Source of the DNA: Draconibacterium aestuarii | Lineage (GTDB): Bacteria > Bacteroidota > Bacteroidia > Bacteroidales > Prolixibacteraceae | Direction of reading: 5' to 3' | DNA: 64,000 nucleotides | Assembly: GCA_026671195.1 (NCBI GenBank) | Contig: JAPOHD010000068.1 | Location: 62,001-126,000, forward strand | Part shown: positions 15,817 through 42,217 of the stretch, in pieces | Layout of the letters: each line of letters opens with the position of its first letter | Position numbering within the stretch: the first letter of the stretch is position 1 | Program-made: the position numbers and the translations under genes | The notes under the pieces: model-generated | What the model was told of the DNA's origin: nothing | Databases searched by the model: none | The model's input: only the letters and a program-made list of their open reading frames with translations

Positions 15817-18117
15817 TTAATCTTCGTTTGTCATCGAGTAAGGGAAACTTTCTTTTGATGTACCACGCTTTTTGTTTGGCACAGCACTCATCGAAAAGTT
15901 TAGCTCGCCACCATTCTGAATTGCGTCATGTTTAATATAGTTTTTATCGTATGATGTTCCGTTTAGCTGAATAGCATCTACGTAAAAATTCTCTTTTGAA
16001 TTGTTCTTTGCATTTATCACAAATTCATTTCCGGTCTCCAACTGCAGGGTTATTTTATCAAACAATGGCGATCCAAAAACATATTCGTCGGTACCCGGGC
16101 AAACGGGATAAAATCCCATTGAACTAAATACATACCAGGCCGATGTTTGTCCGTTATCCTCGTCGCCACAATATCCGTCGGGGCGGTAAGAGTATAATTT
16201 TGTTAATACTTCACGCACGTGTGTCTGAGCTTTCCAGGGTTGATTGGAGTAATTATACAAATAAATCATGTGTTGGATGGGCTGGTTGCCGTGTGCATAA
16301 TTACCCATTCCTGCAATCTGCATTTCGCGAATTTCATGAATTACACCTCCGTAATACGATTCATCGAAAACAGGAGGTACTATAAATACTGAATCCAGCA
16401 TGGTCACAAAATTATCGTTACCGCCCATCAGTTGTTTTAAGCCTTCAACATCCTGGAAAACACTCCAGGTATAATGCCAGCTGTTTCCTTCGGTAAACGC
16501 ATCGCCCCATTTGTAAGGGCTGAATGGCGATTGGAAAGTTCCGTCTTCGTTTCTGCCGCGCATTAAGTTACTTTCTTTATCAAAAACATTACGGTAGTTA
16601 CGTGCACGTTTTTTGAAAAGGTCGATTTCTTCCTGTGGTTTGCCCAATTCTTCCGCCAGTTTCCAAATGCAGTAATCGGCATAGGCATATTCCAGCGTAC
16701 GAGCCGTATTCTCGTTGATGCCAACGTTGTAAGGAACATAGCCCAGTTCGTTGTAGTATTCTGCACCAAAACGACCAACCGAATTTATCGTTTCGTGACT
16801 TTCTTTGGTGTTTTTAATCATCGCTTCGTACAAAGTCTCAATGTCGTAACCACGAATTCCTTTTAAATACGAATCGGCAATTAATGAGGCCGAATTTGAT
16901 CCAATCATACAACCTCGGTGGCCCGGGCTTGCCCACTCCGGCAACCAGCCACTTTCTTTGTAAGTATTGGCCAAACCTTCCATAATCTGAGCATTTAACT
17001 CAGGATACAGCATTGTGAAAAACGGGAAAACAGCGCGGAATGTATCCCAGAAACCATTGTCGGTAAACATATAACCGGGCAACACTTCGCCATTGTAAGG
17101 ACTGTAATGTACAATTTTGTTTTCGGCATTTATTTCGTGAAACATGCGAGGGAAAAGCAATGTACGGTACAAACACGAGTAGAATGTTTTTTGTTGCTCC
17201 TCCGTGCCACCTTCAACTTTTATTTTCGAAAGTTCTTTTTCCCAGATTTCTCTTCCTTCTTTCTTAACGGTATCGAAGGTTTTGTTTCCGATTTCACGCT
17301 CCAGGTTTAATTCTGCCTGTTCTAAACTAATAAACGATGAAGCCAGTTTAACATTAATCTCTTCACCTTTTTTGGTTTTAAAACCGACAATACCACCTAC
17401 ATGAAAACTTTCTGCTTCTTTTGAGTTTTGCAATTTTTCATCTTTCCAGGTTTTGGTAACTTCAAAATCTTTATCAAAAACAGCAACAAAGTGGCTTTTG
17501 AAATTGGCAGGAACTCCACCATGGTTGTTCTGACAATAACCGATTATCTTACGTTCTTCGGGAATGATTTTCACCATCGATCCGCCGTAAAATCCATCTA
17601 AAAGAATGTAGGATTCGTCATTTTCAGGAAAGGTAAAACGGAAGCTTACCGCACGTTCCGTTGGTGTAAACTCTGTGGTTACATCGTAATCGGCCAGGTA
17701 CACTTTATAATAGTGTGGTTGTGCAACCTCGGCTTTGTGCGAAAACCACGATGCGCGTTCATCTTCGTTAAATTTTAACTCGCCGGTTAATGGCATTAAT
17801 GAGAAGGCAGCGTAATCATTTATCCAGGGACTTGGCTGGTGAGTTTGTTTAAAACCACGGATTTTGTAATCGTCGTAACCATAACACCATCCGTTGCCCA
17901 TTTTACCGGTCTGGGGGGTCCAGAAATTCATTCCCCAGGGGCGTGCAATGGCCGGATAGGTGTTCCCGTTTGAAAGTTTAAACTCGGAATCGGTTCCCAT
18001 TAATGGACTTACCAGATCAACCGGATTAAAAGCTGTTTCTTTTTTACAACAGTCGGTTGTTTTTGTCTGGCAGCTAAATAAAGCAATGGAAATGCAAAAA
18101 ATTAAAAAGTATCTCAT
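15817..18117 (-). CDS. GH92 alpha-mannosidase-type lipoprotein (first)
   Basis: 766 residues from the ATG at 18117 (MRYFLIFCISIALFSC). A longer frame adds 15 poorly fitting residues. The lipobox is LFSC. The mature part opens with VDLVSPLMGT, the usual GH92 N-terminal beta-sandwich, then the alpha/alpha barrel with the family blocks DTFRAVFP, GDEDNGQTSAWYVFSSMGFYP and PGTDEYVFGSP. GH92 enzymes are calcium-dependent inverting exo-alpha-mannosidases. The ED pair in GDEDNGQ lies in the conserved catalytic-base block. The lipoprotein signal places it in the periplasm or at the surface. It follows the other GH92 gene by 88 bases on the same strand as SusC and SusD. Linkage specificity (1,2, 1,3 or others) cannot be read by eye. 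Confidence 0.93.
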   Translation of the reverse strand: MRYFLIFCISIALFSCQTKTTDCCKKETAFNPVDLVSPLMGTDSEFKLSNGNTYPAIARPWGMNFWTPQTGKMGNGWCYGYDDYKIRGFKQTHQPSPWINDYAAFSLMPLTGELKFNEDERASWFSHKAEVAQPHYYKVYLADYDVTTEFTPTERAVSFRFTFPENDESYILLDGFYGGSMVKIIPEERKIIGYCQNNHGGVPANFKSHFVAVFDKDFEVTKTWKDEKLQNSKEAESFHVGGIVGFKTKKGEEINVKLASSFISLEQAELNLEREIGNKTFDTVKKEGREIWEKELSKIKVEGGTEEQQKTFYSCLYRTLLFPRMFHEINAENKIVHYSPYNGEVLPGYMFTDNGFWDTFRAVFPFFTMLYPELNAQIMEGLANTYKESGWLPEWASPGHRGCMIGSNSASLIADSYLKGIRGYDIETLYEAMIKNTKESHETINSVGRFGAEYYNELGYVPYNVGINENTARTLEYAYADYCIWKLAEELGKPQEEIDLFKKRARNYRNVFDKESNLMRGRNEDGTFQSPFSPYKWGDAFTEGNSWHYTWSVFQDVEGLKQLMGGNDNFVTMLDSVFIVPPVFDESYYGGVIHEIREMQIAGMGNYAHGNQPIQHMIYLYNYSNQPWKAQTHVREVLTKLYSYRPDGYCGDEDNGQTSAWYVFSSMGFYPVCPGTDEYVFGSPLFDKITLQLETGNEFVINAKNNSKENFYVDAIQLNGTSYDKNYIKHDAIQNGGELNFSMSAVPNKKRGTSKESFPYSMTNED

Positions 18118-18205
18118 TTTTTTAATATTAGTAGTTGTCTTTAGGTTGAAAAACACTTTCATTAAACGCGTAGCAAAAATATATTATTTTAACAAACTCC
18201 GGCAA

Positions 18206-20431
18206 CTAATAAGCAGAATTAGGCCGGTTACCCATGTCAGTACCAAAATATTTATTTGGAGTCGATCCCATTGTAATTTCCAAAGTGCCTCCATTTACAA
18301 TATCGGAGTGGTTTATATAACTTTTAAAATACGGAGTTCCGTTAAGTTTAATTTTCTGAATATAAATGTTTATCCGGTTTCGGTTGACGGTTTTTATTTC
18401 AAAAGTTTTATTTCCGGGTAACTGAATGGTGGCATTATCAAATAGCGGGCTACCAAAAACATACATCCCTTTGGCCGGATTTACAGGGTAAAAACCCAAC
18501 GATGAAAATACATACCAGGCCGACATCTGTCCGCAATCCTCGTTCCCGCTTAGTCCGTTGGGAGTATCGAAGTACATATTGTTGAGTATGAAATTTATTT
18601 TCTGGGCGGTTTTCCATTGTTCGCCGGCGTAGGCATATAAATAGGGAATATGGTGTCCGGGTTCGTTGCCCTGGGCATACATTCCAATTAATCCGGAAAT
18701 ATCAACCGAAGCTCCCTCGTTGAGTTTCTGTTCGGTGGAGAACAGGCTGTCTAAACGCGCTGTAAAGGCTTTATCGCCACCAATGAGTTGAATCAGTCCT
18801 TCCACATCGTGGGGTACCAACCAGCTGTACTGCCAGGCATTTCCTTCACAGTAATCGTCGTCGCGGTGTTTCGAGGCCACCGGATCAAAAGGAGTACGCC
18901 AGGTTCCGTCAGCCATTTTGCCTCGCATAAATTGGGCTTTTCTATCGAAGTAGTGTTTATAATATTCTGCTCGTTTCGAGAATAGTTCAAAATCTGCTGT
19001 TTTGTTCAATTTTTTGGCCATTGCCGCAATACACCAGTCATCAATAGCATATTCCAAAGCGATAGCTACCGATTCAATCATCGAATCGGCTGGTATGTAT
19101 TCGCTCGTTTGTAGAAAGTTTAATCCGCGTTCCTGCAGTAAGGCCGACCTTTTCATGGCTTCAAATGCATCTTCAGCATCAAACTCTCTGAATCCTTTTA
19201 AGTAGGCATCAACAATTACCGGGATTGCATGGTTCCCAACCATGGTATTGGTTTCGTTTCCATGTAAATGCCAAACCGGAAGTTTACCTTGCTGATGGTA
19301 AATATCGAGCATCGAATTAACCATGTCATTTACTCTGTCGGGTTGGTAAATGGTGTATAAAGGATGTGCTGCACGGTAGGTATCCCACAGCGAAAATGTA
19401 GTGTAGGTATTGTGGCCTGGATTCTTTTTTATCTCCCTGTCGGTTCCCCTGTAATCAGCATTTGAATCGTTGTACAATGAGGGGACAAACATTGTGTGGT
19501 AGAGCGATGTATAAAATATTTTTTTATCTCTTGGATTTTCTGTTGTTACTTTTATTTTCGAAAGTTCTGTATTCCATTTTGAATTGGCCAGGCCTTTTGT
19601 TGCTTCAAAATCCCAGTGGTTGAGTTCGGTTTGCATGTTGTTTTTAGCCCCCTCGATACTTGTGGGCGAAATAGAAGTTTTGGCTAGTAACTCACCATTT
19701 CCTTCGAACTCAATAAGTACAGTATTTATTCCTGTTTTTTTGTCGGAAGAGAGGATATCAAGTGTTTTAATTTTTTTTGAGAACTCGGTATAGAAAAATA
19801 GTTGTTGGTTTTTAGCCCATCCGGTTGAAAATCGTGATCCGCAGATTGAATTATCTCCGGTTTGTCTGAGTTGAGTCTGAGTAACTGCATCCCATCCTGT
19901 ACCATATTCTAGATCGATAATAAGTTGTGAATTACCGGTAGCTTTATAGTTGTATTTATGGAATCCAACTCGTTCTGTAGCTGTTAATTCAGCTAGAATA
20001 TTGTATCGATTAATTTTTAATGAGTAGTAACCCGGCTTTACAATTTCATCTTCGTGTGTGTATTTTGATATCCAGGGGTAGTTAGTTGCAGAGTCTTTTT
20101 TACTTTGGAAGTTCCCTGAAACAGGCATAAATAAGATGTCGCCTAAATCACCAATTCCCGTTCCGCTGAGGTGGGTGTGAGCAAAACCAATTAACAGTGA
20201 ATCGGAAAAGTGGTAGCCTGAGCACCAATCCCATTCTTCTCTTTCGTTATTTGGACCCAGTTGAACTGCTCCAAAGGGAACATTTGCACCTACAAAAACA
20301 TGCCCATGGCCGTCGCTGCCAATATATGGATTAACAAAAGTAGTATAATCAGCAGGGGAGAGTGGAGAGCTACATTGAATGAATAGCCCTGACAACAGAA
20401 TTGTAAAAAGTTTTAGAATGTGTTTGCACAT
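18206..20431 (-). CDS. GH92 alpha-mannosidase-type lipoprotein (second)
   Basis: 741 residues, lipobox FIQC. It starts with TTFVNPYIGSDGHGHVFVGANVPFGAVQLGPN, a common opening of GH92 proteins. Further family blocks are WDTYRAAHPLY, GNEDCGQMSAWYVFSSLGFYP and GMYVFGSPLFD. Compared with its neighbour it differs in the N-terminal domain and in the substrate-loop segments, so the two probably cleave different alpha-mannosidic linkages or remove mannose in sequence. It lies downstream of susD beyond a hairpin at 20471-20499, so its expression may be reduced relative to susCD or depend on readthrough. Confidence 0.94.
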   Translation of the reverse strand: MCKHILKLFTILLSGLFIQCSSPLSPADYTTFVNPYIGSDGHGHVFVGANVPFGAVQLGPNNEREEWDWCSGYHFSDSLLIGFAHTHLSGTGIGDLGDILFMPVSGNFQSKKDSATNYPWISKYTHEDEIVKPGYYSLKINRYNILAELTATERVGFHKYNYKATGNSQLIIDLEYGTGWDAVTQTQLRQTGDNSICGSRFSTGWAKNQQLFFYTEFSKKIKTLDILSSDKKTGINTVLIEFEGNGELLAKTSISPTSIEGAKNNMQTELNHWDFEATKGLANSKWNTELSKIKVTTENPRDKKIFYTSLYHTMFVPSLYNDSNADYRGTDREIKKNPGHNTYTTFSLWDTYRAAHPLYTIYQPDRVNDMVNSMLDIYHQQGKLPVWHLHGNETNTMVGNHAIPVIVDAYLKGFREFDAEDAFEAMKRSALLQERGLNFLQTSEYIPADSMIESVAIALEYAIDDWCIAAMAKKLNKTADFELFSKRAEYYKHYFDRKAQFMRGKMADGTWRTPFDPVASKHRDDDYCEGNAWQYSWLVPHDVEGLIQLIGGDKAFTARLDSLFSTEQKLNEGASVDISGLIGMYAQGNEPGHHIPYLYAYAGEQWKTAQKINFILNNMYFDTPNGLSGNEDCGQMSAWYVFSSLGFYPVNPAKGMYVFGSPLFDNATIQLPGNKTFEIKTVNRNRINIYIQKIKLNGTPYFKSYINHSDIVNGGTLEITMGSTPNKYFGTDMGNRPNSAY

Positions 20432-20527: not shown

Positions 20528-22099
20528 TTAAAAGTTGGAACCACCAGTGTCCCACCATAGACGTGTGCTAATCAGATCATCACCTTTCATGGTTGCAACA
20601 GCTCCTGCAACTCCATCAGTATTTCCGGTGCGTTCGTCGTTAATAAATGGCATACGTTTAATCCATTCATCATTCGGAATAACGCCCCAGTCGGAGTTAC
20701 TGTCGTTTTTGTAAACCAAAGGTAGTTTTGGATAACCCGTTCTACGGAAATCAGCCCAGGGTTCGTTTGGATTTGTAAATCCTGCAATCCATTTTTGGGT
20801 AATGATTTTTTCCAGTTTTTCTTCGTTTGTTGTTGTTTCGTCCCAGGCAACAGTAACTGTTGAACGGGAAACAAAATCGTTTATATCACCATCATAAACC
20901 GGATCGTTATAATCGATAGGTGTACTGGTTGCATCAGCCAGATAGGCATCAACTCCACCTGCACCCCATTCAGCAAATGAAGCACGAACACCGTCCTGGT
21001 AGTTAGCACCTGCATCGCCGGCACCTTCCCAACCACGTAAGGCAGCTTCTGCCAAATCGAAATAAACTTCAGCACATGATAAATAACTTCTTTCAGAAAT
21101 GCTTTTAAAACTTTCGTTGATCATTGAGCATGAAGTGTGATCTCCTTTTGCAACCAACGATGCGCCGTTGCGAATACCTTTATAAGGTACTTCCGGGTGA
21201 TCTGCATATAGTGATTCGTCGGTTGCAGGTTGGAAGAATTTAGAAATACGATTATCATTCAATCCAACGAGGAAAGATTCCATCCCTGCTGACATGCGTG
21301 TATCGCCCCATTCGAAACAAATAACTGATAAATATAATTTTGATCCGTACAACGATACGTTAAAGTTTTCGTCGTTTGTAAGGATCAAGCCCGCTTCATC
21401 AGCAATTGCTTTTTCACCTTCAGCTTTTGCCAGGGCAGGAGCTACTTTCGAAATACGAATGGCTAAACGCAAACGCATTGAGTTAACCAGTTTCATCCAG
21501 CTGGTTACATCACCACCATAACTGGCATCGAAGTTTTTCATTCCTGTATAATCTTTGTTAGCGGCAAATACAGCCTGAATTGCATCCAACTCGGAAAACC
21601 ATGCATTGTACAACTCCTCTTCGCTATCATAATTAATTGTTGATAAGTTTGAACCATATTCAGAATAAATAAGTGGTCCGTGGTAAGTTGTCAAACGCGA
21701 TAATCCTAAAATCTGGATAAGTTTTGCCCATTTGGTAAATACATCGTATCCTCCCGCTTCAGCAATTTCAATTACTTGTTTTGATGGAGCCATGATAGAA
21801 CCATAAATACGGCCCCAATAGGTATTCCAACGGATGTAATAAGTTGTATTGTTCACACCGTTAACAAATGGTGTTGGTGTGGCCATGTAATCACAGAAGG
21901 ACTCGGCTACCAGATTTTCTTCAATCTGGTGACCAAATATATTTCCCAACATTGAAGAATAATAGGCTCCAACATGGTTGAAATCTTGTTCCAGAGACTC
22001 ATCTGTTATCTGGTACGGATGTGTGTTTGCTTCATCGAAGGTATCCGTACATGCGCCCATAAAAAGAGTCACAGTAAGTAAGAATATTATTTTTTTCAT
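20528..22099 (-). CDS. SusD/RagB-like nutrient-binding lipoprotein (SusD_2 type)
   Basis: 523 residues with a lipobox (LFMGAC) followed by TDTFDE, an acidic stretch consistent with surface export. The body is the tetratricopeptide-rich SusD fold of the SusD-like_2 subgroup: HQIEENLVAESFCDYMATPTPFV near the N-terminus and the C-terminal block NPNEPWADFRRTGYPKLP. These proteins sit on the SusC barrel and close over it to capture oligosaccharides. Only 12 bases separate it from SusC on the same strand, the standard pair order. Confidence 0.93.
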   Translation of the reverse strand: MKKIIFLLTVTLFMGACTDTFDEANTHPYQITDESLEQDFNHVGAYYSSMLGNIFGHQIEENLVAESFCDYMATPTPFVNGVNNTTYYIRWNTYWGRIYGSIMAPSKQVIEIAEAGGYDVFTKWAKLIQILGLSRLTTYHGPLIYSEYGSNLSTINYDSEEELYNAWFSELDAIQAVFAANKDYTGMKNFDASYGGDVTSWMKLVNSMRLRLAIRISKVAPALAKAEGEKAIADEAGLILTNDENFNVSLYGSKLYLSVICFEWGDTRMSAGMESFLVGLNDNRISKFFQPATDESLYADHPEVPYKGIRNGASLVAKGDHTSCSMINESFKSISERSYLSCAEVYFDLAEAALRGWEGAGDAGANYQDGVRASFAEWGAGGVDAYLADATSTPIDYNDPVYDGDINDFVSRSTVTVAWDETTTNEEKLEKIITQKWIAGFTNPNEPWADFRRTGYPKLPLVYKNDSNSDWGVIPNDEWIKRMPFINDERTGNTDGVAGAVATMKGDDLISTRLWWDTGGSNF

Positions 22100-22111
22100 G
22101 ATATTACTTTA

Positions 22112-25100
22112 TTAGAATGTAACTTTAAGGTTGAATCCGTAAGTTCTGGTAGCAGGTACGTTGAAGTTATCAAGCGACTGAGAGTTCAAATCAGTACTCA
22201 TTGTAAGTTCCGGATCGAAAGGAGCATCTTTGTATATAAAGAATAAATTTTGACCAACTAAAGAGAATGAAGCTGCTTTAATCGGCAGACCAAGGTCTTG
22301 CACGTTTAAATCGTAAGAAAGAGCTAATTGGCCCAAACGAATATTGGTACGATCGTAAACATAGGCTTCAGCAATACCATTACGGTCGCCTACGCTAGTA
22401 TAGTATAACTGTGGATCAATTGAAGTAACAGGAGTTGTTCCCTGGATTGCGTTAATGGCAACACCTCCATTGTCACGTGCATCAGCAGAGCGCTGACTTA
22501 CGCCATATCCGTCTAACATTGCTTCTGTTTGACTAAAAACATCGCCACCAATTTTAGCATTGATAAGGAAGCTTAGTGCAAATCGTTTGTAGTCGAAACT
22601 GTTGTTCCATCCAAGACTGAAATCGGGTTCCAAATTACCCAGGTATTCTTTTTCAGCAGTTTTTAGCGGAGCTCCGCTTTCTTCATCCAACATAATTTGT
22701 CCGGCATCGTTACGTTTGAATTTGTAACCATATAAATCGCCAAACGAACCACCTGCAACAATGTAAGTTGTATAACCTTCAGAGCTACCATATGAAATTT
22801 GTTTGTCGGCAAATTCAGGAACCAACTCAACAATTTCGTTGTGATTGTTCGAGAAGTTCACGGTTGTATTCCATGAGAAATCTTTGTTTTGAATGATTGA
22901 TCCGTTTAAAGTAATCTCAATACCTTTATTTACAACTTCACCCGCGTTTATGTAATAGTATGTATATCCCGATCCCGATGGAGCTGGTAATGTAATAAAC
23001 TGATCCTGACTATTAATGTTGTAGTAAGTGAAGTCTAATCCGGCACGTCCGTCAAACAATCTCATATCGGTTCCAATTTCAAAACTTCTGATCATTTCAG
23101 GTTTCAGGTTTTCGAAAGGTTGTTGCGTATTTCGGTCAACACCACCTCCGGAATTGATTGTGTGCATTGGATTTACTACATTAAACGGTACTTCGTTTGC
23201 CACAGTACTGTACGATGTTCTTAGTTTCCAAAAAGTAAGGAAATCTGGTAAATCCATCATTTCAGTTACAATACCCGATAAACCAACCGATGGGTAGAAA
23301 TAAGATTCGTTACCTGTACCGGATAAAGTCGATGACCAGTCGTTACGACCTGATAAATCAAGGAAAAGCATGTCTTTAAAACCCATTTGAACATTGGAAA
23401 ACACACCTTCTTTGATGATTTGTCCCGCATAAATCGACTGAACCTGCACATTGCTTGGTAAGTTCTGGAAGTTGAACTCATTTGGATAAAGCAAATTGTT
23501 TGTTCCGTTGTCAACACTCACACCATTACCAAAAGTACCTTTCTGGTAACTGGCTCCTAATACACCACTCAGGCTAAAATCACCGAATTTGTTTTCGTAG
23601 GTAAAAATACCGTCGGTGTATAATTGCTCGTCGGTAAATTTCTTATAGCTCCAACGACCTGTTGACGAAACGTTTGTTCCATTACCACCTGCATAGAATT
23701 TTTGCTCGTATGATTTGTTTGCATAATCGTAACTACCACGAACTTTAAATTTCAGGTGATCGGTGATGTCATAATCAACAGTCATGCTGGCAATAACACG
23801 TTTGGTTATATCTTCTTTGGGTTGTTTGTTCAGCAACCAGTATGGATTCGACTGATGGTGATCATCTACAAACCAGTTTTGCAGGTACATATTTCTTTCA
23901 TCATCGAAGTACTGGTAATTTTCTTTGTAGTCGCTAAAATCTCTGTCGCGCGGGAAAAAGTACAGTCCGGTTAAAGGATTCAGGTAGTAACCAGCCGTAT
24001 TACGGTTTTTGGCTTTTTCTGAAACCAACATTACATTGGAGCTTACTTTCACTTTGTCGTTAAATAATTTAGTCGACTGTTGAAACGAAACGTTGTTTTT
24101 CGAGTACTCGTTGTTAGGAATAACACCTGCAGCTGAAGTATTCCCAAACGAGAAGTAAGCTGTTGTTTTATCGTTGCCACCGCTAACTGATAACGAATTT
24201 ACCAGATTATATCCTGTCTGGAAGAAGTCGTCAACATAATCACTGTCGTAATTCCCTTTTGTATACGACCAGCTTTCTTTTGTTCCTCCTTCACTTCCGT
24301 ATGTAAACTGAAGATCAGGTGTTTTTGTGATGTTTTCGAAAATGGCACTTGAATTAAAGTTAACAGTAGTCTGTCCTTCTTTTCCTTTTTTGGTATTGAT
24401 GATAACAACACCATTGGCTCCCTGGCTTCCATAAAGAATAGCAGCGTTGGCTCCTTTCAGAATACTGATACTTTCAATGTCATCAGGATTAATCTGCGAT
24501 AGACCATCACCTTCGTCTGTTCCACCCCACATTCCAGACTGATTTCCTTTGCGGTTTACCATCGGAATACCATCGATCACATAAAGCGGATCGCTTGACT
24601 GACTCAATGAATGGTTACCCCTTAACACAGTTTTGGTAGAACCACCTGCACCTGAAACACTTTTCTTAATTTCAAGACCGGCAGTTTTTCCACTTAAACC
24701 ACTCATAAAGTTAATGTCTCTGGCTTTCATCATTTCATCGCCAGTAACCTGTTGTGATGAATAGGTTAGCGTTTTTTTGTCGCGCTGAATACCCAGTGCT
24801 GTTACAACAACTTCATCAAGATTTTTAGTGTCAGTATTTAACACAATGCTAATTTCCGACTGACCGGTAAAAGTCAGCTCCTGTGTAAGCATGCCGATAA
24901 AGCTAAATACTAATACGTCGCCTTCTTTTAAACTCTTAAGTACAAAATCACCGTTTGTATTTGTAACAGTACCATTTGCAGTACCTTTTACCAATACGGT
25001 AACTCCCGGCAGAGAGAAATTGGAATCATCTGTTACTTTCCCTTTTAATTCGCTTTGCTGATCAACACCAGAGGCTAGCCCTGTGTAAACAGATAGGATT

Positions 25101-25183
25101 AAAGTGAAAATAACAGCAAATTTTGTGATAGAGAGCCATCCTTTACTTGTTTGATGACTGATCTTAAAGAAAGATTTTTCCAT
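22112..25183 (-). CDS. SusC/RagA-type TonB-dependent outer-membrane transporter
   Basis: 1023 residues. After an N-terminal signal region (hydrophobic about residues 20-40) there is a carboxypeptidase-D-like regulatory domain (SELKGKVTDDSNFSLPGVTV), a TonB-box-like LDEVVVTALG, the plug domain (VLRGNHSLSQSSDPLYVIDGIP) and a long barrel ending in a phenylalanine (RTYGFNLKVTF). It imports oligosaccharides with SusD. There is no STN domain before the regulatory domain, so it is not the signalling type that talks to an anti-sigma factor. It is divergent from the SARP-like regulator gene with 282 bases between them. Confidence 0.95.
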   Translation of the reverse strand: MEKSFFKISHQTSKGWLSITKFAVIFTLILSVYTGLASGVDQQSELKGKVTDDSNFSLPGVTVLVKGTANGTVTNTNGDFVLKSLKEGDVLVFSFIGMLTQELTFTGQSEISIVLNTDTKNLDEVVVTALGIQRDKKTLTYSSQQVTGDEMMKARDINFMSGLSGKTAGLEIKKSVSGAGGSTKTVLRGNHSLSQSSDPLYVIDGIPMVNRKGNQSGMWGGTDEGDGLSQINPDDIESISILKGANAAILYGSQGANGVVIINTKKGKEGQTTVNFNSSAIFENITKTPDLQFTYGSEGGTKESWSYTKGNYDSDYVDDFFQTGYNLVNSLSVSGGNDKTTAYFSFGNTSAAGVIPNNEYSKNNVSFQQSTKLFNDKVKVSSNVMLVSEKAKNRNTAGYYLNPLTGLYFFPRDRDFSDYKENYQYFDDERNMYLQNWFVDDHHQSNPYWLLNKQPKEDITKRVIASMTVDYDITDHLKFKVRGSYDYANKSYEQKFYAGGNGTNVSSTGRWSYKKFTDEQLYTDGIFTYENKFGDFSLSGVLGASYQKGTFGNGVSVDNGTNNLLYPNEFNFQNLPSNVQVQSIYAGQIIKEGVFSNVQMGFKDMLFLDLSGRNDWSSTLSGTGNESYFYPSVGLSGIVTEMMDLPDFLTFWKLRTSYSTVANEVPFNVVNPMHTINSGGGVDRNTQQPFENLKPEMIRSFEIGTDMRLFDGRAGLDFTYYNINSQDQFITLPAPSGSGYTYYYINAGEVVNKGIEITLNGSIIQNKDFSWNTTVNFSNNHNEIVELVPEFADKQISYGSSEGYTTYIVAGGSFGDLYGYKFKRNDAGQIMLDEESGAPLKTAEKEYLGNLEPDFSLGWNNSFDYKRFALSFLINAKIGGDVFSQTEAMLDGYGVSQRSADARDNGGVAINAIQGTTPVTSIDPQLYYTSVGDRNGIAEAYVYDRTNIRLGQLALSYDLNVQDLGLPIKAASFSLVGQNLFFIYKDAPFDPELTMSTDLNSQSLDNFNVPATRTYGFNLKVTF

Positions 25184-25465
25184 AAAATTTGAGTTAAGTT
25201 AAAATTTCTAAAATTTTGAACGATTATAGATCCAAATGCTTAATGGTGCGGTTAACTCTTGATTAATATGTAAATATTTTTTGTTAATAGCGATTAATTA
25301 TGGATTAATAAGCCTGTATGGCGTTGGTAATGAGTTGGTAAGTGATGTATGTTGAACGTTGATCAAAATGAAACATTTTTTAACATTTCTGGTATTTACT
25401 TCCATTTAATAGCAGGATTTACCTAATTAATCGTTTTTTTGTATCAGTTTTAGTTGAATTATAAT
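25184..25465. promoter_or_regulatory. Shared regulatory region between susC and the SARP-like regulator gene
   Basis: 282 bases between divergent starts, very AT-rich. No perfect -33/-7 pair was found for either gene. Its notable content is a set of phased GATTAAT/TTAAT repeats, listed separately. Both the SusCD locus and the regulator must be controlled from here. Confidence 0.6.
25240..25309. repeat. Helically phased direct heptamer repeats (GATTAAT), candidate operator
   Basis: GATTAAT occurs exactly at 25261-25267, 25292-25298 and 25303-25309, that is 31 and 11 bases apart, about three turns and one turn of DNA. TTAAT alone also occurs at 25240 and 25284, giving steps of 23, 21, 10 and 11 bases. 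SARP-type winged-helix activators are known to bind direct heptamers one turn apart. The cluster lies 78-126 bases before the susC start. Confidence 0.5.
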
Positions 25466-28012
25466 ATGAAGATTCGCGGAATACTTTTACTTACTTTTTT
25501 TAATCTTTTTTCTTTAATCGGTTCGACAAACGATACCAGAGGATTATTATTTAATTCGAAGGAGGTTGGGCCGGAAAACCGTACTGGAATAGATATTACA
25601 AGAAAAGGTGAAATCCAGTACAATGGATCCTTTACCATTTCTTTTGATATTTCGATGCGGTTTTTAGCCGAACGTTATGGTTATATTTTTCAGTTGAAGG
25701 AAACAAAAGGTAAAAACAAACTTGACCTGATTTGCAAAATAGATCAGTTTTTCCCCGATCTGTTTATTCTTCATAACAAAAATGAAACGGATTTGAAAAT
25801 TGGATTGGCACCGATCCACAACGAAATGACCAATAAGTGGTACCCTTTTCAATTAAAGGTGGATGCCAAATCGGGATTAGTAGAAATGAAGTTTGATAAT
25901 ATCGAAGTCAGAGATACAATTAATCTTCCTGAAAATTCCAAACTGGAATGGACTTTTGGAGTGGTTAACCGCTATGGATTCGATAATGATGAGGTTCCGC
26001 CAATGTCGATAAAAAACATTAAGTTTCAGGAAAACAATAGCCTTAAATATTATTGGCCGCTTTATCGCACAAACAGTCAATGGACAAAAGATTCTGTTTC
26101 GGGGAAAAAAGCACAGTTAATACATCCGGCCTGGAATATTAACAAACATCAGCGTTGGCAAAAACTAAAAAATCTTGAATTCTCTGAGTTTCCTCAAATT
26201 GCTTTCAATAAAGAGTCTGAAAGTATTTATTTCTTAATCAGGGGCGAGGGAATTGAAAAATATGAGTTAAACACCGACAACCTGTTTCATTACAACAGCA
26301 TAGAAGGAAAACCGTATTACGAAGATGGACAACAGGTGGCATTTAATAGAGAAAATAAGTTGGTTGCCTATAGTTTTTATAAAGATAGAATATCGGTGTT
26401 TGATGAAAATTTGTTGCGTTGGAATAATAAAGAAGATACAATTCCTCCTTTGCCCAAATATTGGCATCATAATAAAATGCTACACCCCGTTGACAGTGTT
26501 TTAACCATTGTTTGCGGCTACGGTTTTTTCCAGTATTATAATCTGTTTCAGCAGTACGATTATAATAAGAAGGTGTGGAAAAACCTGGAAATGAAAGGTG
26601 ATGAAATTTATCCGAGGTATTTGTCATCGCTTGGCCAGAGCAAAACGGATAAAAACAGATTTTATTTGTTTGGTGGTCTTGGAAACAAACAGGGCAGGCA
26701 AATTTTTGGACGAGAATTTTATTACGATTTATATCAAATTGATTGCGACTCGAACCATGTGACCCGACTATGGGAAAGTAATGACATTCCGGTGCTTGAC
26801 TTTACTCCGGTAAATTCGATGATTGTTGATGATGAGGCAGGATGTTTTTATACACTGTGTTTCCCACACAACAAATTTTCTACTTATCTTCAGGTGTTAA
26901 AAGGAAATTTTAAGAACCCTGACTGGGAGTTTCTGGGTGATACCATTCCTTATAACTTTCACGATATAAAATCCTTTGCCGATCTTTATTATTGGGAAAC
27001 GCATCACGAATTGCTGGCCATCACCTGTAATGAAAAGGAAAATGAAAAAGGGAATTTTGAAGTGGTTTTATATTCGCTGAATTTTCCTCCTGTAGAGCTG
27101 GATTCTGATACTTCCGTCATTTGTTCGGAAAACAAAACAAACCCATTGTTTCGTTTATTGCTAATGTTGCTGGTTATTGTATTTTTTGTTCTGCTTTTGT
27201 ATTTCAGAAGAAAAAGCAGGCAAAAACCAGTTGATAAGAAAGCAGGTATTGTGCCCGCTGCTGAGAATCAAAGGTTAGTGCCATTCTCCGAGAAAGGAAG
27301 AATCCTGATGTTTGGCGGATTCCAGGTTTTTGATAGAAATAGCATAGATATTACTTACCGTTTTAGTCCAACGTTGAAGGAACTTTTTTTACTGTTGATT
27401 TTGCATACAGTGGATGGAAATAAAGGGATAACTTCAAAAAAAATACAGGAATATTTGTGGCCCGATAAATCAGATTTAAACGCAAAAAACAACAGAGGTG
27501 TAAACATTAAAAAGTTACGTCAGATTCTTGAAGATATTGGTGATGTTAAAATTACATACGATGGCAATTATTGGAAAATTAATCATGACGATGAGGTGTT
27601 TTGTGATATTGAATTCATAAAGCAACAGATTTCAAGAGAAATTGATGAATTCGCAATGAGTGGATTTGACAGTATGCTTTCTATATTGAGTCGTGGAAAT
27701 TTACTGGTTAATATGGAATCGGATTGGTTAGATCAGATCAAAGATGATATAACAGGCCGGATTCTGAATCGTTTGGAAGAACTTTGTTCGTTGATTGAAA
27801 TAAAAGGAAACGAAACAATACTACTTAAAATTGCCGATATCATTTTTACTTTCGACCAGGTGAATGAAACTGCTTTGGAGTATAAATGCCGGATTCTGAA
27901 TAAACAGGGTAAACACAGTCTGGCACTTGAAGTGTACAATCATTACACGAAACTCTACTCCAGATTGTACAACGAAGATTTTAGTATGTCATTTAAAGAT
28001 CTGGTGAAATAA
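25466..28012 (+). CDS. Membrane-anchored SARP-type transcriptional regulator with periplasmic LamG/kelch-like sensor
   Basis: 848 residues from the ATG at 25466. In order: signal peptide (1 to about 20); a concanavalin/LamG-like beta-sandwich (about 25-200, e.g. GSFTISFDISMRF); a beta-propeller-like region (about 205-550) with one clear kelch-type blade, FYLFGGLGN; one membrane helix (about 561-580, LLLMLLVIVFFVLLLYF) followed by RRKSRQK; then a cytoplasmic DNA-binding end. That end has a SARP/OmpR-type winged helix (about 611-712: LMFGGFQVF, LKELFLLLILH, IQEYLWPDKS, NIKKLRQIL, YDGNYWKI) and a BTAD-type helical repeat domain (about 715-848, ALEVYNHYTKLYSRLY). No kinase or receiver domain is present. 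The design is a one-component membrane sensor, probably controlling the adjacent GH92/SusCD genes. Domain calls are by eye; the sensor ligand is inferred to be a glycan. Confidence 0.82.
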   Translation: MKIRGILLLTFFNLFSLIGSTNDTRGLLFNSKEVGPENRTGIDITRKGEIQYNGSFTISFDISMRFLAERYGYIFQLKETKGKNKLDLICKIDQFFPDLFILHNKNETDLKIGLAPIHNEMTNKWYPFQLKVDAKSGLVEMKFDNIEVRDTINLPENSKLEWTFGVVNRYGFDNDEVPPMSIKNIKFQENNSLKYYWPLYRTNSQWTKDSVSGKKAQLIHPAWNINKHQRWQKLKNLEFSEFPQIAFNKESESIYFLIRGEGIEKYELNTDNLFHYNSIEGKPYYEDGQQVAFNRENKLVAYSFYKDRISVFDENLLRWNNKEDTIPPLPKYWHHNKMLHPVDSVLTIVCGYGFFQYYNLFQQYDYNKKVWKNLEMKGDEIYPRYLSSLGQSKTDKNRFYLFGGLGNKQGRQIFGREFYYDLYQIDCDSNHVTRLWESNDIPVLDFTPVNSMIVDDEAGCFYTLCFPHNKFSTYLQVLKGNFKNPDWEFLGDTIPYNFHDIKSFADLYYWETHHELLAITCNEKENEKGNFEVVLYSLNFPPVELDSDTSVICSENKTNPLFRLLLMLLVIVFFVLLLYFRRKSRQKPVDKKAGIVPAAENQRLVPFSEKGRILMFGGFQVFDRNSIDITYRFSPTLKELFLLLILHTVDGNKGITSKKIQEYLWPDKSDLNAKNNRGVNIKKLRQILEDIGDVKITYDGNYWKINHDDEVFCDIEFIKQQISREIDEFAMSGFDSMLSILSRGNLLVNMESDWLDQIKDDITGRILNRLEELCSLIEIKGNETILLKIADIIFTFDQVNETALEYKCRILNKQGKHSLALEVYNHYTKLYSRLYNEDFSMSFKDLVK

Positions 28013-28047: not shown

Positions 28048-30459
28048 TTACAATTCCGGAAATTTTGTTGGTTCCACTTCGCGCATCATTTCGTACACAT
28101 TTCTGAAGAGACGTTCAACATTAGGTTTCGAAAAATATTCTCCGTCAATTCCGTAGGCTGGCCGGTGTTCTCTTGCAGGTAATGTACGTGGTGCAGTATC
28201 CAGGTAGTTAAATGCTTTTTGTTCTTCCATAACTTTTTGCATCATATATGCGCTTGCACCTCCCGGAACATCTTCATCCATAAAAATTACTTTATTTGTC
28301 TTTTTTACCGACTCCAATATAACATGATTTACATCGAAAGGCATTAAGGTTTGCACATCGATTACTTCAATAGATATTCCTTTAAAATCTTGTAATAATT
28401 TGGCTGCTTTTACTGCGTGGTGTACATTCCATGCGTAGGTAACCACTGTCACATCGGTTCCTTCAATCATAATTTCCGGTACGCCAAGCGGAACTTTATA
28501 CTCGCCATGATTTGCCGGAAGTTTTTCTTTTACGTTGTACCCTTTCAAAGGTTCAATAACTATGGCCGGGTCGTTTCCTTCTAAAAGTATGTTGTAAAAA
28601 CCGGCAGCCTGTGTCAGGTTGCGCGGAACGCACAAATACATTCCGCGTAACGATCCCAGTAACATTTGCATGGGCGAACCGGCATGCCAGATGCCTTGCA
28701 ACTGGTGTCCGCGTGTACGTACAATTAAGGGGGCAGCTTGTTTCCCTTTGGTACGGTATTGCAAGGTCGCCACATCGTCGCTTAACTGCGACTGTGCATA
28801 AATCAGGTAATCCAGATACTGGATCTCGGCAATGGGCCGGAATCCTCTCATAGCCAAACCAATTCCCTGCCCAATAATGGTAGCCTCCCGAATTCCGGTA
28901 TCCGAAACACGGTCGATTCCGAACTTTGCCTGCATGCCTTTCATGCCCTGGTTTACTCCGCCTAATTTACCTGTGTCCTCGCCAAATGTGACCAGGTTCG
29001 GATATTTTTGAAACAGGATATCAAAGTTTTTATTTACTACTTCAGAGCCATTTACATCCACAGAACCGTCATCATACTTAACAGGATTACTTTCAATGTT
29101 TAAAGCTGAATCTTTACCGGTGCGGTACAAATTACTGTTGTAGAATCCTGCAGTTCGCTCTTCAAATTTTTTTATCCAGGTTTGCAACTCTTTACGTTCT
29201 TCCTGCAAGTCGGGGATTAAATGGATTTCAAGATTTAATCGTTTGGCAAAACTTACATGTGACCTTCGTGTGGGGAAAATCTTTTTGGTTACTTTTTCAA
29301 ATCGGCGTAAACTTTGTAACTCTGTTTTTTTATCCAGTCGAACCAATATGTCTTTTAATATTTCTCTTTCTTTTAGAAAACCATCAGTATAATTTTTCCA
29401 GGCTATATTTTTGGCATCTTTAGCGTGTTTTTTTGCCGATTTTTCAATCTCAACCAACATGTCAACATCAGCAATCCCTGTTTCTAAAAGCCATTTGCGC
29501 ATTTGGGGTACGCTATCGTATTCATTTTCCCAGGCAAGTCGTTCCTTGGTTTTGTAGCGTTCGTGCGATCCCGAAGTGGAGTGTCCTTGGGGTTGTGTAA
29601 CTTCGTATATATGAAATACAACAGGCGTGTGGTTTTTTCGGCAAAAGTCGATTCCTTCTTTAAAAGTATTTATCAGTCCGGGGTAATCCCACCCTTTGCA
29701 CTTAAGTATTTTTATTCCGTTGGTTTCTTCTTCTTTCTCAAAGCCTTTTAAGACTTCCGAAATGCTTGATTTTGTGGTTTGCAAATCAATAGGGACACTT
29801 ATTCCAAAACCATCGTCGTAAACGGCCACAGCAAGTGGAACCTGCATAACCCCGGCAGCGTTTATCGTTTCAAAAAATATTCCTTCCGAAGTACTGGCAT
29901 CGCCAATGCTACCAAACGCTACTTCATTTCCTGTAACATTGTTGTTTAAATTATTTTTCAGATCGGGGCGCTGCCGAACAATTTTTGAGGCCTGTGCCAT
30001 TCCCAATAAACGTGGCATTTGTCCCGCAGTCGAAGAAATATCGGAGGCAGAATTGTATTGAAATGCCAGGTTTTTTATTTCACCTTCTTCATTAATATTG
30101 GGTGTGCTAAAGTGGTTGTTAAAATTCCGACCGGCAGTTGACGGATTTATTTCTTCGTCGGTATCGCCATAAATCATCGAAAAAAACTCTTCGGGCTGAA
30201 GTAAGCCAAGCGCCAGCATAAAAGTCTGATCGCGGTAGTAGCCCGATCGCCAGTCGCCTTTTTGAAAAGTTTTGGCATAAGCAATCTGAGCTACTTCTTT
30301 GCCGTCGCCAAATATTCCAAAATGTGCCCGTCCGTTATGAACTTCGCGACGACCCAGTATACTCAATTGGCGGCTTAAATAAGCTATGTAATAATCCTCA
30401 AGTGCTTCTTTCGTAGATATTTTCTTTTTAGTTGTCAATGCAGTCTTCTCAATAATCAT
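28048..30459 (-). CDS. Fused 2-oxoacid dehydrogenase E1 (alpha and beta halves in one chain)
   Basis: 803 residues from the ATG at 30459 (MIIEKTALTT); a longer frame to 30561 is unsupported. The N-terminal half is E1-alpha: GKEVAQIAYAKTF, YYRDQ, and the thiamine-diphosphate motif GDASTSEGIFFETINAAG. The C-terminal half is E1-beta: FGEDTGKLGGVNQGM, GFRPIAEIQYLDYL, RTRGHQLQGIWHAGSPMQ and IDVQTLMPFD. The fusion is common in Bacteroidota and is usually assigned to branched-chain 2-oxoacid (or pyruvate) dehydrogenase. E1 decarboxylates the oxoacid and passes the acyl group to lipoyl-E2. No E2 or E3 gene is nearby, so the complex partners are elsewhere. Confidence 0.93.
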   Translation of the reverse strand: MIIEKTALTTKKKISTKEALEDYYIAYLSRQLSILGRREVHNGRAHFGIFGDGKEVAQIAYAKTFQKGDWRSGYYRDQTFMLALGLLQPEEFFSMIYGDTDEEINPSTAGRNFNNHFSTPNINEEGEIKNLAFQYNSASDISSTAGQMPRLLGMAQASKIVRQRPDLKNNLNNNVTGNEVAFGSIGDASTSEGIFFETINAAGVMQVPLAVAVYDDGFGISVPIDLQTTKSSISEVLKGFEKEEETNGIKILKCKGWDYPGLINTFKEGIDFCRKNHTPVVFHIYEVTQPQGHSTSGSHERYKTKERLAWENEYDSVPQMRKWLLETGIADVDMLVEIEKSAKKHAKDAKNIAWKNYTDGFLKEREILKDILVRLDKKTELQSLRRFEKVTKKIFPTRRSHVSFAKRLNLEIHLIPDLQEERKELQTWIKKFEERTAGFYNSNLYRTGKDSALNIESNPVKYDDGSVDVNGSEVVNKNFDILFQKYPNLVTFGEDTGKLGGVNQGMKGMQAKFGIDRVSDTGIREATIIGQGIGLAMRGFRPIAEIQYLDYLIYAQSQLSDDVATLQYRTKGKQAAPLIVRTRGHQLQGIWHAGSPMQMLLGSLRGMYLCVPRNLTQAAGFYNILLEGNDPAIVIEPLKGYNVKEKLPANHGEYKVPLGVPEIMIEGTDVTVVTYAWNVHHAVKAAKLLQDFKGISIEVIDVQTLMPFDVNHVILESVKKTNKVIFMDEDVPGGASAYMMQKVMEEQKAFNYLDTAPRTLPAREHRPAYGIDGEYFSKPNVERLFRNVYEMMREVEPTKFPEL

Positions 30460-30611
30460 ATAAAATATTTTCCGTCTTAATTTGTCTGTAATCGCAAGAA
30501 TAACGTTTTTACTGGGGTTTTGTTCGAATTGTTTTTTATTCTGAGAGGTTTTAATATCCAATAAAAACAGGTATTTTTAGAATCTAAATCAACGCTAAAA
30601 TTATACCTGAA

Positions 30612-38596: not shown

Positions 38597-40435
38597 CTAC
38601 TTTTTAAGATTTTGTTTTTTTATTTTAAAAGGATTGTATTTATTGCCCGAGAACTCTACATCAGCATGTCCGGCATATTCAAGCATATTTAGTCGTACAC
38701 CATGCACAATTACGGCCATAGCAGCTAAAATCATGTTCAGTCCGTGTCCGAGTACCAGAATAATAACGGCTCCAATTCCCGAAGCAAGGGTTGTTACCCC
38801 ATCACCAATGGCCATTTGGTTAAAGCTTGAAGCCATCAATACTGTTGATAATCCCACGGCATATAGTCTGATGTATGAAATAATATCGGAAAATCCGTTA
38901 ATGATACTCAATGGTAAATCTCCGAGTGAAGACAGAAGGCCTTTGAAAAAACTTGTTCCGGGTTTTGAGAAAAAAGCCACAAGTACAGCACCTCCAATAA
39001 ATAACCACATCATTATTGCGGGGGCCGGAATCGAAAGTACCATCTGACTAACTACAAAATATAGTCCCCAGATGATGGATACCCATCCCAGTTGTGCAAT
39101 GGCTTTTACGCTGTAATGAAATTTCCAGGCGGTTTGCAAATGACCAATGGTAAGATGAATGGCACCTATTAAGAACATAAGTTTTTGAATAAATACCGTG
39201 TCGCCACCAAAACTTGCCAGCTGTGTTACTTTAAGTTCTCTTAAAACCGGTATATCGGCAATTGCTTCGGCACCAAAATAGGTTCCGGTCAATATTCCCC
39301 AAATCATTATCGAAGATGAAAGGGTATACATTAATGCAAAATCCACTTTTTTAATGAATTTCTGTTTGCGGTGTACCAACAAAGTAACGAGTAAGAATAC
39401 CAACCCATAGCCAGCGTCACCAACCAGAATGCCTGTAAAAAAGGTAAAGAATATCATAAATACCCTTGATACATCCATTTCCCGGTAACCAGGAACCAGC
39501 CCCATGAAATTCATCACCGGCGTTATTCGTTCGGCCCATTTCGAGGTACGGACAAGTGTCGGAACTTCGTCCATTTCTTCTTCCAGGGGTTCTTCAATTA
39601 CGTACCCCCAATGATGTTCTTCTGCAGTTTCTACAAACTGATCAACCGCATCAACAGGCAAAAATCCTTTCCAAAAGCGCACCTGGTTATCGATTGATAT
39701 TCCACCAAACTGAACATTACGTACATCAAACCGGCGGATTCGTTCCTGAAGTGCATCTTCCAACAGATTTTTCTGTGTATTCAGCGCAGCCATCAACCCT
39801 TCGATATGATCGAGTTCTTCATCTGTAATGGCAATCAGATCAGTTAATTCATCGTACTGTTCCACCGGAATTTCAACTTCCAGGAAAGGTAACTTTTCAT
39901 TTTCATCCGACGAAACCAAAGCAATACGGTAAGTGGTTTCATCTTTACCTACCAGTTGTATGTCTTCGCGTTTGCTAACTAATTTATATTCTTTTTCATC
40001 GAGTTTATACAGTCGGATTGAAACTCCTTTTTCGCGCAGTTCATCAACGTCGGCTAAAGAAATCGTTCCCCAGGTATTGTACCATTGAACGGCACGAATA
40101 TGTTCCTGTTTTTTGTCTTCAAAATAAATACGACTGTGTTCTGAATCCAGAACCTTTTCCATCATTTCAATTGCTCCGCGCTCGTTTTCGATGTAAACCG
40201 AATAATCAATCGGAACCGGATCCGGAACAGGTGTTTTATCGTATCTGCTCAAAATTGAAATGGCTTCCTGCAATTGTTTTATGCGGGCATCTACTCGTTC
40301 AATTGACTCGTGTTTTGCCGGCTGAAAAGGTGCCACATGCACAACGCCAAGTTGTCCCAGAAGTGTTAAATCGGCATCAACATCTTCTTCTGCATCAGGC
40401 AAAAAAAGAATCAGCTTTTTCATTTTGGTAATCAT
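38597..40435 (-). CDS. ntpI: V/A-type ATPase subunit I (stator membrane subunit)
   Basis: 612 residues. The N-terminal cytoplasmic half (about 1-310) is helical and contacts the peripheral stalks. The C-terminal half has about seven to eight membrane helices, including FFTGILVGDAGYGLVFLLV and the SYIRLYAVGLSTVLMASSFN block, whose arginine faces the rotor glutamate during ion transfer. The start is ATG 40435, overlapping the subunit D stop as ATGA; an alternative ATG is at 40423. It forms the ion half-channels with subunit K. Confidence 0.95.
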   Translation of the reverse strand: MITKMKKLILFLPDAEEDVDADLTLLGQLGVVHVAPFQPAKHESIERVDARIKQLQEAISILSRYDKTPVPDPVPIDYSVYIENERGAIEMMEKVLDSEHSRIYFEDKKQEHIRAVQWYNTWGTISLADVDELREKGVSIRLYKLDEKEYKLVSKREDIQLVGKDETTYRIALVSSDENEKLPFLEVEIPVEQYDELTDLIAITDEELDHIEGLMAALNTQKNLLEDALQERIRRFDVRNVQFGGISIDNQVRFWKGFLPVDAVDQFVETAEEHHWGYVIEEPLEEEMDEVPTLVRTSKWAERITPVMNFMGLVPGYREMDVSRVFMIFFTFFTGILVGDAGYGLVFLLVTLLVHRKQKFIKKVDFALMYTLSSSIMIWGILTGTYFGAEAIADIPVLRELKVTQLASFGGDTVFIQKLMFLIGAIHLTIGHLQTAWKFHYSVKAIAQLGWVSIIWGLYFVVSQMVLSIPAPAIMMWLFIGGAVLVAFFSKPGTSFFKGLLSSLGDLPLSIINGFSDIISYIRLYAVGLSTVLMASSFNQMAIGDGVTTLASGIGAVIILVLGHGLNMILAAMAVIVHGVRLNMLEYAGHADVEFSGNKYNPFKIKKQNLKK

Positions 40436-41040
40436 GATGCTGCCTCCTCTCTTTTTTTAGTTTTTACAACCTTGGCCGTTGCGATTGTCAAACGCTCGTC
40501 GTCCTGTAATTTTTGCCCGATTTTACGAATCGCCATTTGAGCATTCGGAATTCGTCGGTTTTCGAATAGTTTTACCCTTGCGCGAACCTCTAATAATTCT
40601 TCTTCTAAAAGTTCTATCTGATCTTGTAAACACTTGATCTCAGCCATAAGCTGAAGTTGCTCCTGCATAAGTAACACGGCGTCATCCACCCACAAAGGTG
40701 TTTCTTCGCCGGTTGGCATTACGTTAAAATCAACTCTTTCGAATTGCTGAACGCGTACTCCGGCCACATCAACAGGTTGTGTAATTATTTCGTGTACCGA
40801 AATAAACGAATTTATATCCACCCACGAGTCGCTCATTACTGCAACCCAGGGTGTGGCTTTCTTTTCGTTCTTTTCAATGGCTTCGCGAATGCGTTCAATG
40901 TTTTCAGCAATGGAATTTATGGTTGCAATCAACGATTTTTCCATGGCTTCAAACAAGGGCAGCATGCGCAACGAAACCTTGAGGATTTTCTTCTGCCGGG
41001 CACGTTCTGTTTTCGTATATTTTATCTTTACTCCTGCCAT
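40432..41040 (-). CDS. ntpD: V/A-type ATPase subunit D (central shaft)
   Basis: 202 residues, mostly two long helices as expected for the rotary shaft: ARQKKILKVSLRMLPLFEAME at the start and NRRIPNAQMAIRKIGQKLQDDE near the C-terminus. It is the counterpart of F-type gamma and turns inside the A3B3 head. It overlaps the DUF2764 gene by 13 bases at its start and subunit I by 4 bases at its end. Confidence 0.9.
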   Translation of the reverse strand: MAGVKIKYTKTERARQKKILKVSLRMLPLFEAMEKSLIATINSIAENIERIREAIEKNEKKATPWVAVMSDSWVDINSFISVHEIITQPVDVAGVRVQQFERVDFNVMPTGEETPLWVDDAVLLMQEQLQLMAEIKCLQDQIELLEEELLEVRARVKLFENRRIPNAQMAIRKIGQKLQDDERLTIATAKVVKTKKREEAAS

Positions 41041-41543
41041 TGCTCCTCCTTCTTTTTCGCTGGATTAACTACCGATGCCAATATTTTGGAACCTTTTTCA
41101 GTGTTAAAGGAATCTAACCTGGTAAGAATCTGCAGTTTTAATTTATACACCAAAACTTCGGTTAAGGTGAATGTTTTTCCTGCTTCAATTGAATCAAGTT
41201 CTTCCCACTGCCATTTTAAAATATCCATTTCGCGTTCGAACGGATTTTTTGCCAGAATCGTTTTGGGGAGTGCTGAAATTCTCGGACTTCGTCGTTGGGT
41301 TTTTGCATGCCTTATTTCAGAAATATCTTCTTTTAAGCCGGTAAACATTGCGCTGAACTTTTTTAATTCCGCTTTTGTCGAATTCAACGACATGTTTTGA
41401 ATGTCAATCGCTTCCAGCTTTGCAAAACTTTTCCGATTTAACTGGCTTTTTGCATCGCTTGTAAACTCCTCCATCGAAATTGGCGGAGATTGCCCAAAAC
41501 TAAGCGACGGCAAACTGCACATTAAATAAACGAGGTTCGACAT
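41028..41543 (-). CDS. DUF2764 protein of the V/A-ATPase operon
   Basis: 171 residues with no membrane helix and no signal peptide. It opens NLVYLMCSLPSLSFGQSPPISMEEF and has the helical middle MDILKWQWEELDSIEAG. DUF2764 proteins occur inside V/A-ATPase operons of Bacteroidota and some other phyla. The opening LPxLxFGxxPPIS and helical build resemble the start of subunit C/d, so I suspect it takes the place of subunit C as the socket between shaft and ring. That role is inference. It is 2 bases after subunit E and overlaps subunit D by 13. Confidence 0.85.
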   Translation of the reverse strand: MSNLVYLMCSLPSLSFGQSPPISMEEFTSDAKSQLNRKSFAKLEAIDIQNMSLNSTKAELKKFSAMFTGLKEDISEIRHAKTQRRSPRISALPKTILAKNPFEREMDILKWQWEELDSIEAGKTFTLTEVLVYKLKLQILTRLDSFNTEKGSKILASVVNPAKKKEEQWQE

Positions 41544-41545
41544 AT

Positions 41546-42151
41546 TTATTCCTCCGAATTTTGAGTGATTCGTTTTACGAGGTCTTTATTTAACAGCGAA
41601 AATAATCCGTCTTCCACATCTTTTGCGCTTAAAACAAACTGTACACCCTCTTTTTCAGAAGAGCTCACTACAATTTTTGCTTCGTTTTCTTCCAGAATTT
41701 TTAATTCAACTTTATCGGCAAGGGCTTGTTTTTGCAAAAATGCTTCCATGTCTTTTACTGTATCGGCTTTAATCGATAAGGTTTTCTTCCCGTCAATCGA
41801 TTCAACAACAGCTTTTACGATTTCCTGTAAATATTGCTTTTCAGAAAACAAGGTTTCGGTTTGCTTTCCAAACACTGATTTTAAATGTTTGAGAATGGTT
41901 ATTTTAGTTGCCTCAACCATATCGCGCGATGCCTGAACAATGGCTGCCTGTGCATTTTTTTCAATCTGTGCCGCACTGCTTTCTGCGTCCTTAATTATTG
42001 TTTCGCTTTCCGCTTTGGCTTTTTTTACAATGTCGGCAGCTTGTTTTTTGGCTTCTGATATAATGCGTTGTTTCTCTTCTTCACCGGCATTAATTCCCTG
42101 TGACTTTAATTTGGAAACAATTCCCTGTAGATTCTCTTTATTTTCTTTCAT
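41546..42151 (-). CDS. ntpE: V/A-type ATPase subunit E (peripheral stalk)
   Basis: 201 residues. The first half is a charged coiled coil (GEEEKQRIISEAKKQAADIVKK, SETIIKDAESSAAQIEKNAQ), and the second half is the globular domain that grips the top of the A3B3 head. It normally pairs with subunit G/H; no separate G gene is visible here. It lies 66 bases after subunit B, the widest gap inside the operon. Confidence 0.85.
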   Translation of the reverse strand: MKENKENLQGIVSKLKSQGINAGEEEKQRIISEAKKQAADIVKKAKAESETIIKDAESSAAQIEKNAQAAIVQASRDMVEATKITILKHLKSVFGKQTETLFSEKQYLQEIVKAVVESIDGKKTLSIKADTVKDMEAFLQKQALADKVELKILEENEAKIVVSSSEKEGVQFVLSAKDVEDGLFSLLNKDLVKRITQNSEE

Positions 42152-42217
42152 TCGTTCTTTTTTTTTTGGATTGTTAATTTTTGGACTATGCTGAATTAAT
42201 ACTACTCCAGACGAAGT

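Follow-up and report, generated by a model that had tools for sequence, protein, structure and literature searches.

Control of glycan loci in Bacteroidota is usually ascribed to hybrid two-component systems, to sigma/anti-sigma pairs or to SusR-like proteins. SusR is the known precedent for a membrane sensor: it binds maltose in the periplasm and activates the sus operons, its motif repeats lie 67 or 77 bp apart, and by the published account its C-terminal domain is unlike any other DNA-binding domain known (PMC3878776; this and the other papers are cited from excerpts). Three of the five SusR-like regulators in B. thetaiotaomicron adjoin susCD. Here we describe a gene in a 64,000-nucleotide stretch of Draconibacterium aestuarii DNA (contig JAPOHD010000068.1, positions 62,001 to 126,000; hereafter the window). 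The gene, at 25466..28012 on the plus strand, has an intact translation of 848 aa, and its product is, by sequence and structure modelling, a kelch protein with one membrane helix and a SARP-fold C-terminus. We consider it quite probable that this protein is a membrane-bound one-component regulator of the neighboring susCD locus.

The SARPs AfsR, PimR and EmbR resemble the window protein in having a winged helix followed by a BTAD domain and in their operators of heptamer direct repeats with 4-nt or 3-nt spacers. In EmbR the SARP part is N-terminal and no membrane helix is known; in the membrane one-component regulators ToxR and CadC the winged helix is also N-terminal and there is no BTAD domain, whereas that of the window protein is C-terminal and accompanied by one. 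In SARP promoters the last repeat lies about 8 bp from the -10 element. The repeats of SARP sites are 11 or 22 bp apart, and a dimer of AfsR occupies them side by side, each protomer on one repeat (PMC10936776). PimR recognizes three heptamers separated by 4 nt each; at its second site the spacer is 3 nt, which gives 10-bp units (PMC5930380). In AfsR and PimR, too, the SARP part is N-terminal and the cited excerpts describe no membrane helix, whereas the window protein, from a member of the Bacteroidota, carries it at the C-terminal end, after an outside sensor and a membrane helix. With SusR and SusR-like proteins the window protein appears to share a single polypeptide, periplasmic sensing, C-terminal DNA binding and direct-repeat motifs, so that its mode of action may broadly resemble that of SusR, with a SARP module as the output; it differs in the spacing of its repeats, which is 10-11 bp here, long spacings such as those of SusR not having been searched for. 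An earlier note on this DNA set such a phosphorelay-free sensor, glycan-binding outside and DNA-binding inside, apart from the known regulators of Bacteroidota glycan loci, but SusR is a precedent for it (PMC3878776).

A predicted kelch sensor joined by one membrane helix to a SARP-like C-terminus

AlphaFold models were built separately for the N-part and the C-terminus of the protein. The model of the C-terminus (pLDDT 94) matched only SARPs, AfsR and EmbR, at a Foldseek E ≤ 0.001, and the identity of residues 603-848 to the matched SARPs is 12-17%. According to the model and these matches, an OmpR-type winged helix (residues 612-707; 27299..27586) is followed directly by a BTAD-like helical repeat domain (residues 714-847; 27605..28006), which is the domain order of SARPs and the structural match that the earlier note had predicted.

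The N-part begins with a signal peptide, recognized by inspection of the sequence (residues 1 to about 20; 25466..25525), followed by an all-beta sandwich delimited by DSSP of the model (residues 19-224; 25520..26137; fold family unconfirmed) and a kelch beta-propeller (about residues 226-544; 26141..27097). The signal peptide, sandwich and propeller of the earlier note are thereby upheld, but not its assignment of the sandwich to LamG, for which Pfam gives no support; the fold matches mainly cover the propeller, and most structure matches of the N-part are eukaryotic binding scaffolds. A hydropathy scan found a single strong membrane segment at residues 557-584 (27134..27217), with one lysine or arginine in the 20 residues before it and five in the 20 after, in agreement with the helix and basic stretch that had been noted; the model of the N-part has a helix at model positions 542-565, a low-confidence segment ahead of it at 531-539, and a basic linker follows the helix on its C-terminal side. 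Hybrid two-component systems, which are often encoded next to susCD, likewise combine a periplasmic sensor and a DNA-binding part in a single chain, but their histidine kinase, receiver and AraC domains have no Pfam match in the window protein, both halves of which the models explain otherwise.

At E ≤ 1e-3 the regulator is matched by 265 proteins, itself included, of which 120 were listed and 60 aligned. Named sources include Draconibacterium, Maribellus, Labilibaculum, Marinifilum, Chitinophaga and Mucilaginibacter, and the database labels read galactose oxidase, hypothetical protein or SARP family activator. The membrane helix and SARP C-terminus are retained in relatives: among 116 proteins of at least 800 aa from the listed set (P0001-P0120, window protein included), 101 have exactly one strong membrane segment at residues 480-640, and in 91 of these 101 lysine and arginine are commoner after the segment than before it. 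Among 64 aligned C-termini there are weak Pfam matches to Trans_reg_C in 12 and to BTAD in 9. With a SARP profile, 5 of 198 genomes of the phylum, the own genome included, gave matches at E ≤ 1e-10, so the SARP-tailed class is not universal in the phylum; within the genus, at least one match limited to the SARP-type C-terminus occurs in 32 of 37 genomes.

Relatives lie near susCD, GH92 or GH99-like genes

In the window the regulator is divergent from susC (22112..25183; TIGR04056, E 8.7e-199), its predicted target, which is followed on the same minus strand by susD (20528..22099; PF12741) and two GH92 genes (18206..20431 and 15817..18162; both PF07971). No other regulator was found among the scanned open reading frames (ORFs) of the window, which agrees with the earlier description of the locus. 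In 80 named loci, the best 80 of 364 found, SusC directly adjoins the regulator in 37 (divergent in 27, downstream in 10). To find neighboring genes, sequences of the window and of locus L051 served as seeds for local profiles; the GH99 match of L051 falls under the Pfam cut-off. Sixty of the loci have about 10 kb of flank on each side; susC/susD is present in 52 of these, GH92 in 37, a GH99-like protein of 430 aa in 34, and GH92 or GH99-like in 51. At least one of susC/susD, GH92 and GH99-like lies within 10 kb in all 60, as expected if homologues accompany SusCD or glycosidase genes. By comparison, in the own genome, the only one used as background, GH92 lies within 10 kb of 3 of 56 SusC genes, the window susC being counted.

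The divergent promoter holds a candidate operator conserved with the orthologue

The 282-bp gap between regulator and susC holds heptamer direct repeats spaced about one helical turn. The predicted main operator, TTGTTAAT-N3-GATTAAT-N4-GATTAAT (25281..25309, plus strand), combines one 10-bp and one 11-bp step, and a second pair, GTTAAC-N5-ATTAAT (25251..25267, plus strand), has an 11-bp step and starts 30 bp upstream of the main operator in 9 of 12 congeneric sites. Judged by sequence, direct repeats at 11-bp steps in a divergent promoter are congruent with a SARP site. Scans of the gap for sigma-70 promoters and terminators gave results at chance level.

The operator pattern, with 22 fixed bases, was written from six gaps (the window and five named loci) and searched for in 37 genus genomes with up to two mismatches. 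Twelve of these genomes hold a close orthologue (at least 47% identity), and each of them has exactly one site, without mismatch, 157-341 bp from the matched stretch of the orthologue gene; six of the 12 played no part in writing the pattern. The exact operator is found in none of the 25 other genus genomes, where there is one match with two mismatches (G026) and the reversed pattern, used as a control, gave one match (G001). All 22 fixed bases are invariant in the 12 sites, versus 5 of 60 and 1 of 60 flanking columns on the two sides. This footprint, together with uniqueness, is stronger sequence evidence for an operator than co-occurrence, because co-occurrence partly follows from physical linkage. 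In the 6.37-Mb own genome, GATTAAT-N4-GATTAAT is exact only at the window site and occurs with one mismatch at 11 further places, 11 of the 12 being on one strand; RTTAAY-N4-GATTAAT is matched exactly at two places besides the window site, once within a susC match.

TTAA arrays at 11-bp steps are enriched at loci of the family

The spacing of the palindromic core TTAA was examined in the gaps between divergent susC and regulator genes, 28 in number (the window and 27 loci). Of these, 26 contain TTAA pairs at a distance of 11 bp; every other spacing from 5 to 30 occurs in at most 11 gaps, except 21 and 22 (two turns), which occur in 20 and 19. In 17 gaps there are triplets at 11 bp, whereas 300 runs with first-order Markov sequences gave 0.08 such gaps on average and never more than 1. 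Ten Labilibaculum/Marinifilum gaps share one block and five Larkinella gaps another, and by our reading, made without a tree, the independent cases are nearer eight or nine clades.

The 80 loci together (1.608 Mb) contain 58 triplets of TTAA at 11 bp, as against 1, 1, 5 and 0 at 9, 10, 12 and 13 bp. None of the 58 was flagged within an ORF of at least 100 aa; 38 lie upstream of susC or the regulator, in 36 loci, and the others upstream of GH92, GH99-like or further genes, or without an assigned gene. In 11 of 12 genomes requested as background (about 73 Mb by rounded sizes; that of L014 was left out) there are 151 triplets at 11 bp and 133 at 12 bp, reversed patterns giving 90 and 117. From this background of about 2 triplets per Mb at either step, 3.3 and 2.9 would be expected in the 80 loci, so that 11-bp triplets are about 17-fold enriched and 12-bp triplets are not. 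An 11-bp triplet or the genus operator is present in 46 of the 80 loci and in 41 of the 60 with full flanks. Two Chitinophaga loci, L046 and L064, have 12-bp instead of 11-bp triplets upstream of the regulator, and L067 has one.

Proposed mode of action and alternatives

Taken together, the structure match, the linkage and the 11-bp repeats in the divergent promoter support the reading of the protein as a membrane sensor with a SARP output. It is probably an alpha-mannoside sensor that activates susCD; activation and autoregulation are what we infer, as is the ligand, because of the linkage to GH92 and GH99-like genes (family GH92 consists of alpha-mannosidases, and alpha-mannans are substrates of GH99). 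A glycan fragment, most likely an alpha-mannoside, would be imported by SusCD, trimmed by GH92/GH99-like enzymes and bound by the periplasmic propeller or sandwich. Binding would change how the subunits are arranged or paired across the membrane. The SARP domains would then sit next to each other along the repeats and bring RNA polymerase to a weak susC promoter, so that the locus is switched on. The regulator would probably also act back on its own gene, and neither a histidine kinase nor a receiver would take part.

Several observations weigh against this reading. The window protein itself has no sequence-level SARP match in single-sequence Pfam, NCBIfam and PDB-sequence searches, nor did a profile of the C-terminus find a SARP in the PDB. 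Among the loci with full flanks, 8 of 60 lack susC/susD and 9 of 60 lack both GH92 and GH99-like genes. The strict array is missing from 34 of the 80 loci and 19 of the 60, and distant relatives of full length (27-33% identity) occur in six of the 25 operator-free genus genomes, which means that the whole family is not tracked by the operator. No exact copy of the Bacteroidota promoter box TAnnTTTG (PMC7366714) abuts the window operator on either strand, and the direction of control at the window therefore rests on linkage and not on the promoter. Elsewhere the box overlaps the last repeat, and its orientation differs: it faces susC in 9 of 10 Labilibaculum/Marinifilum gaps and the regulator in L004-L007. 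The overlap is also present at 5 of 12 congeneric sites, three being L005-L007 and one L004; the boxes that face the regulator belong to Maribellus and to some Draconibacterium.

Such overlap could also mean that the protein represses the locus until the glycan arrives, the same repeats blocking RNA polymerase. EmbR, one of the two matched SARPs, acts as an activator. So does the characterized AfsR (PMC10936776), at whose repeat positions the two upstream repeats would, by inference only, be placed, and we regard repression as unlikely. Similarly doubtful is signaling by proteolysis, in which binding or absence of the ligand would trigger cleavage near the membrane and free a soluble SARP domain; the low-confidence segment before the helix and the basic linker after it would suit such a mechanism, as would the finding that the SARP domain of AfsR, on its own, can activate transcription in vitro (PMC10936776). 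There is little chance that the repeats serve another DNA-binding protein or a promoter architecture, with the SARP-like protein doing something else: the loci without arrays and the genomic background of triplets leave room for it, but the exact operator is confined to the 12 genus genomes with a close orthologue, repeats are enriched around members of the regulator family, and the scanned ORFs of the window offered no other regulator. That the protein is a kelch enzyme, a galactose oxidase or NanM-like epimerase as database labels have it, is hardly credible given the retained helix and SARP C-terminus and the predominance of binding scaffolds among the structure matches.

Further SARP-tailed proteins and neighboring genes

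In P0134, a 480-aa relative, the region before the helix is about 200 aa, too short for a sandwich and propeller; therefore the sensors vary. Two further SARP-tailed proteins of the own genome, L113:9170-11626 (C57) and L114:8592-11114 (C22), carry LamG domains, and L113 has a BTAD match (E 0.0082) under the curated cut-off. The L113 gene adjoins GFO/IDH/MocA and 3-keto-disaccharide hydrolase genes, and TTAA, spotted after the fact, stands at 11793, 11804 and 11814 before the next gene downstream; L114 has no clear TTAA array.

A fused pyruvate-dehydrogenase E1 alpha/beta-like gene (window 28048-30561) adjoins the regulator, as does its protein cluster in six loci, window included (Pfam checked in two). 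The recurring 430-aa neighbor cluster contains, with GH99-like proteins, L042:2474-3802, which has no Pfam family, and also takes in GH92 proteins by linkage. The Maribellus susCD loci L007 and L005 have the same operator and no GH92 or GH99-like gene, and include L007:2102-4861 (920 aa) and L005:259-2073 (605 aa), with no convincing Pfam family. V-type ATP synthase genes occupy window 38597-45300.

Implications

We lean towards the view that these proteins represent an undescribed class of membrane-anchored SARP switches in Bacteroidota that control glycan and sugar loci. Their sensors outside the membrane would be interchangeable, being a kelch domain, LamG or only a short N-part, their targets readable from 11-bp repeats with a TTAA core, and their regulons mappable by sequence alone. 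Open-licence PMC papers, for part of which only top-ranked matches were seen, yielded no description of a membrane-anchored SARP regulator; the new part is the SARP output, the principle of a membrane sensor being known from SusR. Because sources label the protein galactose oxidase, hypothetical or SARP family, its loci can look unregulated. If the proposal is true, an activation mechanism from actinobacterial antibiotic control has been carried into the sensing of outside sugars, which suggests that SARP-style repeats function in a phylum with a different promoter consensus. The operator makes the regulon and the ligand directly testable, and the linkage to GH92 and GH99-like genes points toward alpha-mannosides.
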